Source: Gemmobacter fulvus
GTDB taxonomy: Bacteria; Pseudomonadota; Alphaproteobacteria; Rhodobacterales; Rhodobacteraceae
Direction: 5' to 3'
Assembly (NCBI RefSeq): GCF_018798885.1
Contig: NZ_CP076361.1
Location: 2,943,501 to 3,007,500 of the forward strand
DNA: 64,000 nucleotides
In this document: positions 57,085 through 62,635 of the stretch, piece by piece
How the letters are laid out: every line of letters begins with the position of its first letter
Position numbering within the stretch: the first letter of the stretch is position 1
The notes under the pieces: generated by a model
Databases searched by the model: none
Seen by the model: the letters and a program-made list of their open reading frames with translations, nothing else
Told to the model about the DNA's origin: nothing
Made by a program: the position numbers and the translations under genes

Positions 57085-57113
57085 TTGCATGGGGCGGTGC
57101 GGGGCGTCATAGT
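57085..57113 (+). promoter_or_regulatory. Stranded native promoter of the amino-acid transporter (candidate)
   Basis: TTGCAT (57085-57090), 17 bases, CATAGT (57108-57113), ten bases before attL. On removing the island this promoter would sit about 30 bases before the binding-protein start. The rest of 57043-57317 has no gene; the element side is A+T-rich. Confidence 0.5.
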
Positions 57114-57122
57114 CCGGCCATC

Positions 57123-57138
57123 ACTCTGTGACAGGGAG
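57123..57138 (+). repeat. attL: left copy of the 16-bp attachment core
   Basis: ACTCTGTGACAGGGAG, identical to 61827-61842, at the point where G+C-rich chromosome changes to A+T-rich element DNA. The integrase gene lies 179 bases inside. Confidence 0.85.
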
Positions 57139-57279: not shown

Positions 57280-57295
57280 ATATAAAAGTGGGCCA
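57280..57295 (+). repeat. Candidate integrase arm-type site, left
   Basis: TATAAAAGTGGGCCAA, 15 of 16 identical to 61743-61758; a second GGGCCAA follows 9 bases after the first ends (GGGCCAAGGG at 57302-57311). Both lie just inside the att cores, as expected for arm-binding or excisionase sites. Confidence 0.55.
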
Positions 57296-57317
57296 AATTA
57301 TGGGCCAAGGGTGAGCC

Positions 57318-58574
57318 ATGAAGCGACAACTAAGCAAACTGTCAGCCAAGGACGTAGCAGACGCGATGTCAGGCAAGCTGGAAACAGGCAGACTGTCAGA
57401 CGGCGGTGGGTTGTATCTGCGAGTTAGAACAGGCGGATCGTGCCAGTGGGCTTTCGTGTCAGGCAAGGGTTCGGAAAAGCGATCTGAGGTCAGCCTAGGA
57501 GCGGTGGCGACACTGGCAGACCTGTCAGGGTCACTTGACCCACAGAAGCGCGCTAGGAGGTCACTGGAAGAGGCCAGACAGAAGGCAGCGGGTCTGAGAC
57601 AGAAACTTGCGCAAGGACAGCTTCCTGCGGCTCTGGTGAAGCGTGGCAGGGCTGAGGCCAAAGTGCCAAACCTGCGGGATGTTATGGACAAATATATAAC
57701 ACTGAATGGCTTGGAAGAAGGCAGTAAGGCCAAAATTGAGGCCGAAAGGGTCTATAAATCCTTTTATAACAACGTGTTAGAGTGGACAAAATCAGATAAA
57801 CTGAACAAAATCAGCAGACACAACGCAGACGCTTGGGCAACTGAGAGGCTTGAGCAAGTATCGCGGGCCAGTGTTATGAGAGAAATCACAGTCTGGAAGG
57901 CAGCATTCAACAAGTGGATCAAAGCGAAAGATTCAAATATGAAAAATCCTTTTGACAATCTGGAATTACCAAAAAAAAAATCATTTGAAAGTGAGATCGA
58001 CAAAAGAAGTCCGATGGAAAAGGACATGATTAATAAATTGATTGATAACATGAGCGATAATGAACGCCTGCGGGAACTGAAAGATTTGTTTGTGGTGTTG
58101 ACCTATACAGGCGCAAGGGTAAGTGAGATCACTGGATTGAGAGTGGTTGACGTTAACCTGAATGACGACGTTTCGTTCATTTCGATCATCCCACATGCAG
58201 GCAGAAGACTCAAAACAGAGGAAAGCAAAAGAAGCATTCCAATTTTTGAACCTATCAGGGATATATTTGAAAGAAGAACTAAAACTAATAATGAATACAT
58301 ATTTGAAAGCTACGCTCGTTCAGAAGTGAAGGCTTCACAGGCTATCATGCGTCAAATTAGGAAGGTGACAAAAGATAAAAAGATAGTCGCTCATAGCCTG
58401 AGACATGCCATGTCAGATTATTTGAGAATTAATGGAGTAACGAAGGACGCTGAGGATTTGATGCTTGGTCACAAAGTAGACAGTATTGCCATGCGCTCCT
58501 ATGGATCGGCAAAGGGCAGAGTCGAATTCTTGAATAAATCTTTGTCAGGGGTGATTGATCATTATTTGAAATGA
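57318..58574 (+). CDS. int: P4-type tyrosine recombinase (integrase)
   Basis: A 418-aa site-specific recombinase. An N-terminal arm-binding DUF4102-type domain (LSDGGGLYLRVRTGGSCQWA near residues 26-45) is followed by a SAM-like core-binding domain and the catalytic domain. Catalytic residues: Arg in TYTGARVSEITGL near 266, the His/Arg pair in AHSLRHAMSDYLR near 358-362, His in LMLGHKVDS and the nucleophile Tyr in AMRSYGSAKGR near 394. Codons up to about 115 are G+C-rich, the rest A+T-rich, suggesting a mosaic gene. Start by ATG after AAGGGTGAGCC. It looks intact and should act on the flanking 16-bp repeats. Confidence 0.93.
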   Translation: MKRQLSKLSAKDVADAMSGKLETGRLSDGGGLYLRVRTGGSCQWAFVSGKGSEKRSEVSLGAVATLADLSGSLDPQKRARRSLEEARQKAAGLRQKLAQGQLPAALVKRGRAEAKVPNLRDVMDKYITLNGLEEGSKAKIEAERVYKSFYNNVLEWTKSDKLNKISRHNADAWATERLEQVSRASVMREITVWKAAFNKWIKAKDSNMKNPFDNLELPKKKSFESEIDKRSPMEKDMINKLIDNMSDNERLRELKDLFVVLTYTGARVSEITGLRVVDVNLNDDVSFISIIPHAGRRLKTEESKRSIPIFEPIRDIFERRTKTNNEYIFESYARSEVKASQAIMRQIRKVTKDKKIVAHSLRHAMSDYLRINGVTKDAEDLMLGHKVDSIAMRSYGSAKGRVEFLNKSLSGVIDHYLK

Positions 58575-58637: not shown

Positions 58638-58952
58638 ATGGAAAAAAAATCTAAGATTGAAAGCTTTGCGAAATCAATAGAGGATAGGATTGAGCGCATA
58701 AGGGCGGAAGTGTTGGAGATATCGAAATTAATCGGAATTTCCGTTTTCGAAGCGGCTGGTTTGGAGAAGGAGCTTGAAGCTGAACTAATGGAGGGTAAAA
58801 ATACCAAAAATAAAACGGGCAAAGGTATTCCGAAATACGAGAACCCAGATAATAAAGGTGAAACTTGGTCGGGGAAAGGCAGGCAGCCAAATTGGATAAA
58901 AAATAAGCGGAAAGACGGGGTTGAACTGGGGGATATGTTGATTAAGCAATGA
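58638..58952 (+). CDS. H-NS/HvrA-family DNA-binding protein
   Basis: A 104-aa basic protein. Residues 1-55 are a coiled-coil-like oligomerisation region rich in Glu/Lys/Ile. The C terminus carries the H-NS DNA-binding motif: KYENPDNKGETWSGKGRQPN followed by W-I, near residues 68-89, very like HvrA/SpB of Rhodobacter. H-NS proteins bind A+T-rich DNA and silence horizontally acquired genes. Here the gene is itself on an A+T-rich island beside the integrase and is followed by a strong terminator. The ATG follows TAAGGGAATGCAGAA. Likely partner DNA: the island itself and perhaps host loci. Confidence 0.9.
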   Translation: MEKKSKIESFAKSIEDRIERIRAEVLEISKLIGISVFEAAGLEKELEAELMEGKNTKNKTGKGIPKYENPDNKGETWSGKGRQPNWIKNKRKDGVELGDMLIKQ

Positions 58953-58972
58953 CATTTAAATGCAATACCAGC

Positions 58973-59003
58973 AAAGGGCGCTTTAACTGGTGCCCTTTTT
59001 TTT
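58973..59003 (+). terminator. Terminator of the H-NS-like gene
   Basis: Stem AAAGGGC/GCCCTTT with a 12-base loop, running into eight T residues, 20 bases after the stop. Strong intrinsic form. Confidence 0.9.
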
Positions 59004-59122
59004 ATTTGCGTTGATGTTGAGCCGATTTTGAAGTAGAATGATGCTATTAGCGTTGCGAAGTATTATAAATAAAGATAGCAGAAATGCTAATAAGAAATAA
59101 GATTTGAACATAGGAGAATTGT

Positions 59123-59290
59123 ATGAAGAAAATCAATGGCAGGTTGCCACATGAGAAAATCGAAACATTGAATAAGATCAATGCATTGGCAGGCGAAGGA
59201 TACCCGTTATGGTATATCGCAAACGAATTAGGGGTTCACAGATCAACCCTTTACAGGTTTCAGAAAAATATGAAGAAAAAGGAGTTTTGA
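59123..59290 (+). CDS. 55-aa helix-turn-helix protein
   Basis: A short gene with a good ribosome site TAGGAG six bases before the ATG. The product is basic and has a helix-turn-helix like that of resolvase/Xre-type small regulators: E-K-I-E-T-L-N-K-I-N and L-W-Y-I-A-N-E-L-G-V-H-R-S-T-L-Y-R-F near residues 29-46. It could be the excisionase or a regulator of the island. I do not recognise a named family. Codon use is A+T-rich like its neighbours, and it ends two bases before the next small ORF. Confidence 0.65.
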   Translation: MKKINGRLPHEKIETLNKINALAGEGYPLWYIANELGVHRSTLYRFQKNMKKKEF

Positions 59291-59292
59291 AA

Positions 59293-59418
59293 ATGTTGTA
59301 TTCATCGGATTTTGACAAAGCAGACTACGAATTTGAAGTAATGCAAAAACTTAAAGAGCAAGAGGCCAGAGCGCAAGGCGAACTGAAATACACAGCAATA
59401 GCTATAGAGTGGCGGTAA
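59293..59418 (+). CDS. 41-aa ORF of unknown function
   Basis: Begins MLYSSDFDKADYEFEVMQKL and ends in I-A-I-E-W-R. An AAGGAG ribosome site lies eight bases before the ATG, overlapping the end of the helix-turn-helix gene, so the two are probably co-translated. Acidic, likely helical. The following 46 codons in another frame (59408-59554) look similar in style, so a frameshifted longer gene is possible. Confidence 0.45.
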   Translation: MLYSSDFDKADYEFEVMQKLKEQEARAQGELKYTAIAIEWR

Positions 59419-59452
59419 GATCGAGGAAGCGGAAAAATATCTTAGGGCTAAA

Positions 59453-59554
59453 ATGGAGTTCGAGATCAAAAAAATGAAAGAGGAATGGTTGCTGTCTGAT
59501 AAAGATTTGTATCAAGCAAAGCTGAACTTCGGTCGATCAATAAACGAATTTTAA
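59453..59554 (+). CDS. 33-aa ORF of unknown function
   Basis: Begins MEFEIKKMKEEWLLSDKDLY and ends S-I-N-E-F. AGGG lies seven bases upstream. The frame is open to 59408, so this may be the 3' part of the preceding small gene after a frameshift, or a separate peptide. Charged and helical. Low certainty. Confidence 0.35.
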   Translation: MEFEIKKMKEEWLLSDKDLYQAKLNFGRSINEF

Positions 59555-59584: not shown

Positions 59585-59703
59585 CTAACTTAAATTATAA
59601 TCTATTAGCGCAAAGGTATTTATAAAGATGAAAGAGGCATTAGGCCGTGTTGACAAAAGGGATTCACGGGGCGCTCTGAACGTGATTCAAGCTGGTATCT
59701 GCG

Positions 59704-60135
59704 ATGGAGACCAGCTTGGCACGAGACCTGATGTCGGACGATGAATGGGCGTTTCACGAACGCTTCATCCTGGCCGTCCGCGCACCGAACGGGCGCAAAC
59801 CTATGAACCATCGTCTTGTTCTGGATGGGATTTTCTGGATAGCGCGCACAGGTTCTCCGTGGCGTGACCTGCCGGAGGAGTTCGGCAAGTGGTCGTCTGT
59901 CTACCGCCAGTTCCGGCGCTGGACCCTGGCTGGGCTGTGGGAAGGGATACTGGAGGCCTTGAACGAGAGCGGGGTGGTTCCTGCGGCCTTGCAGATGATC
60001 GACAGCACCGTGGTCCGCGCCCATCATCAGGCAGCGGGCGCTAAAGGGGGACTCCGCGACAAGGTTTTGGCCGTTCGCGAGGTGGCTTCACGACCAAGAT
60101 CCACCTCCGCGTCAATGGCGCAGGCCTGCCCATGA
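59704..60135 (+). CDS. IS427-type transposase, upstream frame
   Basis: N-terminal half of the DDE transposase: the DUF4096-type domain (MSDDEWAFHERFILAVRA, H-R-L-V-L-D-G-I-F-W-I-A-R-T-G-S-P-W-R-D-L-P) and the first catalytic Asp in ALQMIDSTVVRAHHQAAG. A -1 frameshift at AAAGGGGG (60043-60050) would join it to the downstream frame, giving 262 aa. Codons after the slip site in this frame are not conserved. Confidence 0.88.
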   Translation: METSLARDLMSDDEWAFHERFILAVRAPNGRKPMNHRLVLDGIFWIARTGSPWRDLPEEFGKWSSVYRQFRRWTLAGLWEGILEALNESGVVPAALQMIDSTVVRAHHQAAGAKGGLRDKVLAVREVASRPRSTSASMAQACP

Positions 60136-60491
60136 GGTCGGACATCACGCCGGGCCAGACATCGGACTATCTGGGCTTCAACCTCATCATGGACGACAAC
60201 CTGCCCGAGCCGAGCGTCCTGCTGGCAGATCGCGGCTATGACTCTGACAAGCTTCGAGAAACCATGGAGGGACGCAACGTCGTGCCAGTGATCCCCATGC
60301 GCAAGTCCCGCAAGCTGCGCGTGGCCGTGGACCGCACCCTCTATCGGCTGCGCAACCTCGTCGAGCGCTGTTTCAACAAGCTGAAGAACGCCCGCCGCGT
60401 CGCCACCCGCTACGACAAAACCGCAGAGAGCTTCTTGGGCTTCATCGACATCACCTCGATCCGCCTCTGGCTCCGCCATTTGTCAACATGA
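60048..60491 (+). CDS. IS427-type transposase, downstream frame
   Basis: C-terminal catalytic half, entered by -1 frameshifting: G-T-P-R-Q-G-F-G-R-S-R-G-G-F-T-T-K-I-H-L, then PMRSDITPGQTSDYLGF, the second Asp in VLLADRGYDSDKLRE and the Glu in LVERCFNKLKNARRVATRYD. An ATG at 60132 exists in frame but starting there would drop conserved residues. The stop lies two bases before the right end of the element. Confidence 0.88.
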   Translation, partial: GTPRQGFGRSRGGFTTKIHLRVNGAGLPMRSDITPGQTSDYLGFNLIMDDNLPEPSVLLADRGYDSDKLRETMEGRNVVPVIPMRKSRKLRVAVDRTLYRLRNLVERCFNKLKNARRVATRYDKTAESFLGFIDITSIRLWLRHLST

Positions 60492-61459
60492 CCTAGATGT
60501 TAAGGTGGTAAGTGATCTGGATAATAAGAGGGTCATTTATCAAGGGGAGCTAAATAAAAAAATTAAACATGAGGTCAAAGAGGTAAATTTAAATACGAAG
60601 GATATAGTATTTGGTTGTGAATTTGAGGATTTGTTGATTAGACCATCAAATGGAAAGCATGTGCACGATCTGGCGACTAGTCTAAAAAACGACAACATAA
60701 ATGACAAATTCAAAATGCTAGACGTGTGGAGTAAGGATGGGCAATACATTTGTTTAGATCGGAAATCATAGGCTGCAAGTGTATATTGATAAAGAAGAAG
60801 TATCAGTTCCGTGCAGAGTTCATACTTGCAATACAAAGATAGCAATAACGATTGCACATCGTGAAAACGCTGCGCCTCAAGCAAGTTTGACTGCAAAAGA
60901 GAAGAGTCAAATTGCTTGGAAACTAATTCTCAAAGATTACAATTCAGCGTCTAATTCATTTGTCGGTTCAAAGGAATATTCGTGGAAAACAAAGGACTTG
61001 TCAAACGCTACAAGAGTTAGTGATAGGCAGATTGAATTTATGAGGCGGAGTAATCAGAAAACTAATCAATGCAAATGAAACGGTGCCTGATACTTGGAGT
61101 GAAGCGATAAGGTGGCACACAACAGGTAACATGACATTAGACGAATTAAATGATATAGAGGAAAGAAGGAACATGAATTATCAAAAGTATATTGAATGGA
61201 AAAAGTTAAGTAATGATCCAATGGCAAGCGATGATTTTGGATTGATCGAGCGAATATTGAAAAACAAGGATGAAAAGGATGTAACTAATTTCTTCAATAA
61301 GTTCTTTTCGATCAAGGATGGCGATTTAGTTCAAAAAAAGGACTTTGCAGAAGGGGCGCGAACCCACATTTGCGGATCGGAAGCAGGATCAATCGACAAT
61401 AAAGATGACGATGACAAGTTTGATTTTATTTAATTGGAAATGGGAATTGGGATATGAGG

Positions 61460-61742: not shown

Positions 61743-61758
61743 TATGAAAGTGGGCCAA
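61743..61758 (+). repeat. Candidate integrase arm-type site, right
   Basis: TATGAAAGTGGGCCAA, 15 of 16 identical to 57280-57295 and in the same orientation, 68 bases inside attR. It is followed by TTGACCAAGG, resembling the second GGGCCAAGG of the left copy. Confidence 0.55.
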
Positions 61759-61826
61759 GAAGTTGACCAAGGCCAAGTCAGACATGAAATATTGTTGTTA
61801 TATCAATGTCTTGGATGATTTGTGCT

Positions 61827-61842
61827 ACTCTGTGACAGGGAG
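61827..61842 (+). repeat. attR: right copy of the 16-bp attachment core, containing the ribosome site
   Basis: ACTCTGTGACAGGGAG, identical to 57123-57138. Its last six bases, AGGGAG, are the Shine-Dalgarno sequence seven bases before the ATG of the binding-protein gene, so integration kept that gene translatable. Confidence 0.85.
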
Positions 61843-61849
61843 TTCACAT

Positions 61850-62635
61850 ATGAAATTTGCCGCCCTTGCCGGATTTGCGCTGGCGTTTTCTTCCACCTTT
61901 GCCATGGCGCAGGCCTTGCCTGATCTGGGCGGGCGCGCCGTGGTTGTGGTGACGGAAAACGCCTATCCGCCGCTGCAATTCCTGGATGCCGCGGGCGCGG
62001 CTGTCGGCTGGGAATATGATGCGGTGGCCGAGATTGCCAAGCGGCTGAACCTCACCGTCACCTATGAGAATACCAGCTGGGATGCGATGATCCCTGCTGT
62101 CTCGGGCGGGCAGTATGACATGGGCATGACCGGCATCACCATCCGTGACGACCGCAAGGAGCAGGTGGATTTTTCCGATCCCTATATGCGGTCGGAAATG
62201 GTCATGCTGGTGCGGGGCGACGAGGCGCGCTTCACCGATGCCAAGAGCTTTGGGGCCAATGCCGATCTGCTGATGGCGGCGCAGCCGGGTACCACGCCTT
62301 TCTACGTCGGGGTCTATGAGGTGCTGGATGGCAATGAGGCCAATCCGCGCATCAAGATGTTTGAAACCTTCGGGGCCGGGGTCGAGGCGCTGCGCAGCGG
62401 TGATGTCGATCTGGTGCTGACCGATGGCACGGCGGCGAATGGCTATGTGGCGGCCTCGGAAGGGGCGCTGAAGATCGTGGGCGAAAAGCTTGGGGCCGAG
62501 GATTTCGGCTTCATCTTCCCGAAAGGCTCGGATCTGGTGGCGCCGGTCAATGCGGCGATTGCGGCGATGACGGCGGATGGCACCATGACGGCGCTGAACA
62601 CCAAATGGTTCCTCGAATACAAGATGGGTCAGTAA
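61850..62635 (+). CDS. Amino-acid ABC transporter substrate-binding protein
   Basis: A 261-aa periplasmic SBP_bac_3 protein with a signal peptide ending F-A-M-A near residue 20. Family features: [30 protein letters not shown] near residues 54-73, [20 protein letters not shown] near 105-124, and [20 protein letters not shown] near the C terminus. The ligand is a polar amino acid or relative, not decided. G+C-rich and host-like; its start is fixed by the signal peptide and the AGGGAG of attR. Its native promoter is probably cut off by the island. Confidence 0.9.

Follow-up and report, generated by a model that had tools for sequence, protein, structure and literature searches.

A diverged H-NS/HvrA-type gene directly behind the integrase of a 4.7-kb integrative element in Gemmobacter fulvus

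Proteins of the H-NS family silence the A+T-rich DNA that they bind. Does a small integrative element of Gemmobacter fulvus carry such a protein of its own beside its integrase, and is that pairing a recurring one? The question was raised by an initial annotation of a 64,000-nucleotide stretch of contig NZ_CP076361.1 (hereafter the window), which placed an H-NS/HvrA-type gene next to an integrase on a sub-5-kb integrative element. What we found is a real gene on a real integrative element, and an association of a known kind, in a diverged and apparently private instance.

The A+T-rich 4.7-kb insertion is an integrative element, because a congener (G362) has the empty site: there the same neighbours are joined by a single ACTCTGTGACAGGGAG copy. 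The neighbours, both named by inspection, are a MoeB/ThiF-like gene and then an ABC-transporter substrate-binding gene. In the window the insertion lies between two exact 16-bp repeats and measures 4704 bp, repeat to repeat, or about 3.85 kb if its IS5 is subtracted, so its description as a sub-5-kb element holds. Its ends carry the following features.

57123..57138, unstranded: attL core ACTCTGTGACAGGGAG (16 bp), exact direct repeat of 61827..61842
57281..57310, unstranded: candidate arm-type integrase sites GTGGGCCAA...TGGGCCAAGG, with 77% identity across 30 nt to 61743..61772
61743..61772, unstranded: right-end copy of the candidate arm-type sites (repeat D3)
61827..61842, unstranded: attR core, exact ACTCTGTGACAGGGAG repeat, within the leader of the substrate-binding gene (ATG at 61850)

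A+T makes up 55.5% of the element and 35.6% of its left flank. TpA steps number 4.9 and 1.1 per 100 bases, respectively, which makes them about four times as dense in the element. The 30-nt repeat near both ends, in which GGGCCAA occurs at 57290, 57302 and 61752, may hold arm sites of the integrase, judging from the arm-binding domain of that protein.

The integrase, the H-NS-type gene and the terminator behind them are arranged as follows.

57318..58574, + strand: tyrosine integrase (int), 418 aa; PF00589 1.2e-16, PF13356 1.7e-10, phrog_1 6.1e-39
58638..58952, + strand: hns, 104 aa, H-NS/HvrA-type protein
58973..58998, + strand: intrinsic terminator closing the int-hns stretch, 10-bp stem and U tract

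The integrase is an arm-type tyrosine recombinase (arm domain PF13356) with its catalytic motifs in place (R267, HSLRH 359-363, GH 384, MRSYG 392); like these motifs, the att cores are intact. On the same strand, hns begins 63 bp after the end of int at 58574. It therefore does adjoin an intact integrase gene, as had been proposed.

The 104-aa product was searched against Pfam and matched PF00816, the H-NS C-terminal domain, over 38 of 38 profile positions (E 2.5e-12, 46.8 bits; cut-off 25.6 bits). This was its sole Pfam match, and it bears out the assignment to the H-NS/HvrA type. In the PDB sequence search, the nearest solved structures were the C-terminal domains of Ler (2lev, 5.2e-6), of another H-NS-family protein (2l92, 5.1e-5) and of H-NS. 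When the protein was aligned with 25 others from its own and related genomes, the host's three other H-NS-family proteins included, the T-W, G-G-R, P and W positions of the C-terminal motif GETWSGKGRQPN were invariant in all 26. All invariant positions of the DNA-binding domain are kept (Y67, P70, T76, W77, G79, G81, R82, P84, W86, G94), and the T-W-(S/T)-G-x-G-R-x-P loop of the H-NS C-terminal domain is present. Hence, the motif had been recognized correctly as the H-NS DNA-binding loop.

The predicted layout of the protein is N-terminal helices (residues 2-32 and 36-51), a loose linker (52-64) and the H-NS DNA-binding domain (65-102). The AlphaFold model (mean pLDDT 81) has two N-terminal helices, a low-confidence linker and a confident C-terminal domain: residues 71-100 score 93-95, while the values drop to 67, 60 and 48 across residues 31-40, 41-50 and 51-60. 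Foldseek gave three matches, all to H-NS-type C-terminal domains and none significant (best E 0.14, prob 0.94), which can be expected of a domain this small; by sequence, the match to these structures is significant. The N-terminus departs in the alignment from the usual HvrA N-terminus. Judged by sequence, the protein securely belongs to the H-NS family by its C-terminal domain, and its N-terminal half has diverged.

Two further claims concerned the DNA around hns. The strong terminator was confirmed: in addition to the stem and U tract, the fold of 58960-59012 has a free energy of -20.5 kcal/mol (z -3.45). The palindromic upstream region, in contrast, did not survive comparison with shuffled sequences. 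Within the 63-bp int-hns gap two inverted repeats overlap, each with arms of 5 bp, a length matched by 39% of shuffles; for the region upstream of int the figure was 81%. Both are at chance level, and the palindromes were rejected as a signal.

A promoter-like sequence lies to the left of attL, and int-hns are downstream of it, a position that the initial annotation had not mentioned.

57085..57113, + strand: promoter-like sequence of the substrate-binding gene, TTGCAT-17-CATAGT, left of attL and facing int-hns

All eight congeners examined have TTGNNN-N17-CATAGT directly ahead of the same att-like leader, and this leader continues as far as the substrate-binding gene's start codon. No + strand terminator-like site was found between 57000 and 58973, so int-hns could be read from this captured promoter as far as 58973-58998. 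Probably int and hns share one transcript ending at 58973-58998, which may start from the putative captured host promoter.

How general is the int/H-NS pairing? The integrase has no close relative in the collections searched: its best matches among 296 family genomes cover part of the protein, at 26-41% identity. At E 1e-20 it had no relatives in 384 other genomes of the class, and searches of plasmids, phages, IMG/VR and GTDB contigs likewise found none at the sensitivity applied. None of 29 family loci with related integrases had an H-NS gene within about 1.5 kb and, conversely, none of the 29 best family H-NS loci had a related integrase within 1.5 kb. A further 56 family H-NS loci, with about 5 kb examined on each side, showed no tyrosine recombinase. 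Among 80 GTDB H-NS loci with flanks of up to ±8 kb, two had any profile-recognised tyrosine recombinase, at 3.7 kb in Stenotrophomonas and 0.76 kb in Tritonibacter, both of other types than that of the island. IMG/VR contigs with H-NS-domain proteins had a tyrosine recombinase within 10 kb in 5 cases of 51; none was closer than 1.6 kb, and these contigs were rejected as instances of the same arrangement. Pairs formed with very different integrases could escape these surveys.

The pairing was therefore not upheld as a recurring module, there being no comparable case among 29 integrase loci and some 165 H-NS loci, the latter from partly overlapping sets biased to chromosomal HvrA genes. In Rhodobacteraceae the two genes adjoin essentially never outside this element in the sampled loci, an outcome that the initial annotation had itself named as counting against its proposal. 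In the sets sampled, int-hns is not a conserved module and appears private. It may be noted that the Tritonibacter locus, from T. scottomollicae (L166, 6187-8300 of a 93-kb contig), has its recombinase, of another type, close to an H-NS-family gene. A single-protein viral scan also returned a large phage protein (L088), which shares KELEAELM by chance and was rejected as a viral relative.

The host genome encodes three other H-NS-family proteins above the Pfam cut-off, on the large contig C1 and on C4 and C5. No island-like tyrosine recombinase was found within several kb of their genes (L001, L002, L003). With identities of 32, 30 and 29% to these three, lower in the N-terminus, the island protein is no recent copy of any of them. 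In a tree of 104 H-NS proteins it sits on a branch of 1.4 with support 33/72, where long branches meet at L116; the tree leaves its donor unplaced. Only distant matches were obtained among 72,556 plasmid records, and no match among 50,697 phage records. Two of the host genes, L002 (on C5) and L003 (on C4), are HvrA-type genes on contigs of 193 and 196 kb that are probably plasmids; L001 is on C1.

H-NS homologues on islands (EARL/ROD21, Hfp of serU islands), plasmids and phages are already published; the initial annotation had named plasmids alone, and the homologues on genomic islands were absent from it. A full-length H-NS homologue occurs in 33 of 54 EARL islands (PMC6035254), where these homologues are Hfp (PMC7544231). 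Among 4065 surveyed islands, H-NS homologues turned up in Alpha-, Beta- and Gammaproteobacteria, with only 29 islands carrying a silencer homologue of any kind (PMC7074111). The Hfp/H-NSB proteins of the EARL (ROD21-like) and serU islands of Enterobacteriaceae resemble the present case as full H-NS-family proteins on low-G+C islands (PMC6035254, PMC7544231, PMC7074111), and those islands share with our element an own tyrosine integrase and direct-repeat att sites. However, they are listed from about 19 kb up, lie in tRNA genes, have a directionality factor and often carry transfer genes, whereas the element described here is 4.7 kb long and alphaproteobacterial, uses a non-tRNA site and has a short HvrA-type protein directly behind int. 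EARL islands are recognized by insertion at an Asn tRNA gene together with a conserved directionality factor; the window contains no tRNA. The position of att in the ABC-transporter leader and the lack of a recognisable directionality factor argue against EARL membership.

The 'H-NS histone family' proteins of HvrA type in Rhodobacteraceae, such as those of the host, are similar in length (about 100 aa), in having an N-terminal helix and a loose linker, in a G at position 33 of a short pre-linker motif and in the KY-x-NP...TW(S/T)G(R/K)GR-x-P domain. The island protein differs by its identity of about 30%, a divergent N-terminus with an extra helical stretch and a very long tree branch. Plasmid and phage homologues, such as the plasmid-borne Sfx on IncX plasmids (PMC11796372; plasmid and phage survey in PMC7074111), are likewise xenogeneic silencer homologues on mobile elements, but the carrier here is a small integrated element.

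Apart from int-hns, the element is apparently damaged by IS5 and frameshifts, as read from the following features.

59123..59290, + strand: 55-aa helix-turn-helix protein, resolvase/HTH_7-like (HTH_7 9.1e-5, just below its cut-off)
59293..59554, + strand: small ORF with an apparent frameshift near 59405-59416; frame 1 open to 59416, frame 2 at 59408-59552
59641..60495, + strand: IS5-family insertion, transposase in two overlapping frames (NF033580 on both halves)
60496..61433, + strand: apparently decayed gene, three successive frames tiling with short overlaps, IS5 at its 5' end

The 55-aa resolvase-type HTH protein, which has no catalytic domain, could regulate the element or serve as its directionality factor. 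IS5 (855 bp, terminal inverted repeats I2) was probably active recently, since three more full-length copies of about 100% identity are present in the genome, two on C1 and one on C4. The pattern at 60496-61433 is apparently that expected of one gene with two frameshifts, although some frameshifts may stem from sequencing error. Profile searches gave no family match for the frame-1 part of 59293-59554 and none at a meaningful level for 60496-61433; nor did the remaining ORFs of the island, outside int, hns, the HTH gene and IS5, give a convincing family match. One of these, searched further, had no plasmid relative and only a weak match in one other of 248 family genomes. The family profile searches likewise recognized no AlpA/Xis-type protein or directionality factor on the island. 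The longer genes still intact are int and hns.

What, then, might the H-NS-type protein do? By analogy with the island-borne precedents (EARL, Hfp), it most likely serves the A+T-rich DNA of the element itself, as an accessory silencer or as an architectural protein, and we consider it probable that this is a small integrative element whose second gene encodes a diverged accessory silencer of the H-NS/HvrA type. The element's own tyrosine integrase would have inserted it at the 16-bp site that lies within the substrate-binding gene's leader; hns would be made from the integrase transcript, which would end at 58973-58998 and may begin at the captured host promoter. The protein would dimerise through its N-terminal helices, bind the element's A+T- and TpA-rich DNA through the C-terminal loop and so serve as a local xenogeneic silencer or an architectural protein, either by itself or in mixtures with host HvrA-type proteins. 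Such mixing is doubtful, as overall identity is about 30% and the N-terminus is lower still. The domain, the gene order, the terminator, the att repeats, the empty site and the composition stand behind this explanation; the diverged N-terminus, the low-confidence model there and the non-conserved pairing with int count against it. 'Stealth', self-silencing and control of integrase output, as originally suggested, are plausible hypotheses from known H-NS biology.

Because the remainder of the element appears decayed, hns may be a passenger: a gene from a once larger element that happens to have survived on a decaying remnant and now has no role for the island. This is the main rival, though an unlikely one. 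The IS5 insertion, the apparent frameshifts in 59293-59554 and 60496-61433 and the lack of any relative with the same gene order speak for it, but int and hns, alone among the longer genes, have stayed intact, the terminator is good and the DNA-binding motif is undamaged. The data come from one genome, from which purifying selection on hns is not readable. A small DNA-binding gene beside int is often an excisionase, and hns, directly behind int on an element with candidate arm sites at both ends and no recognized AlpA/Xis-type protein, might accordingly shape the att region and act as directionality factor. We regard this as improbable: we know of no H-NS-family protein serving as directionality factor, the 55-aa HTH protein (59123-59290) would fit the role just as well, and the pairing is not conserved. 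A fuller version, in which an H-NS-fold protein was recruited as partner of int for the direction or timing of excision and the promoter captured at the insertion site drives the pair, is highly improbable; if true, integration itself would switch on recombinase and silencer in this lineage of small islands. It is also quite improbable that the protein mainly antagonizes host silencing, as H-NST does, by forming mixed complexes with host HvrA-type proteins that relieve it. The host does have three other H-NS-family proteins, and islands encoding modulators of host H-NS have been described (PMC6035254), but H-NST-type antagonists consist of the N-terminal dimerisation domain only (PMC6035254), whereas the island protein has a complete DNA-binding domain and is only about 30% identical to the host proteins, less so in the N-terminus.

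With an accessory silencer as the preferred reading, the locus is one more instance of the known pattern of H-NS on mobile islands, here alphaproteobacterial and on an unusually small element. It would allow a test of whether an island this short can supply sufficient silencer to manage its own DNA in a G+C-rich host with three other H-NS-type proteins. The insertion has a second, checkable effect on the host. It separates the ABC-transporter substrate-binding gene from its promoter-like sequence; no copy of the TTGNNN-17-CATAGT motif was found at the right end of the island, the gene retains only its leader at attR, and it may be poorly expressed after the insertion.
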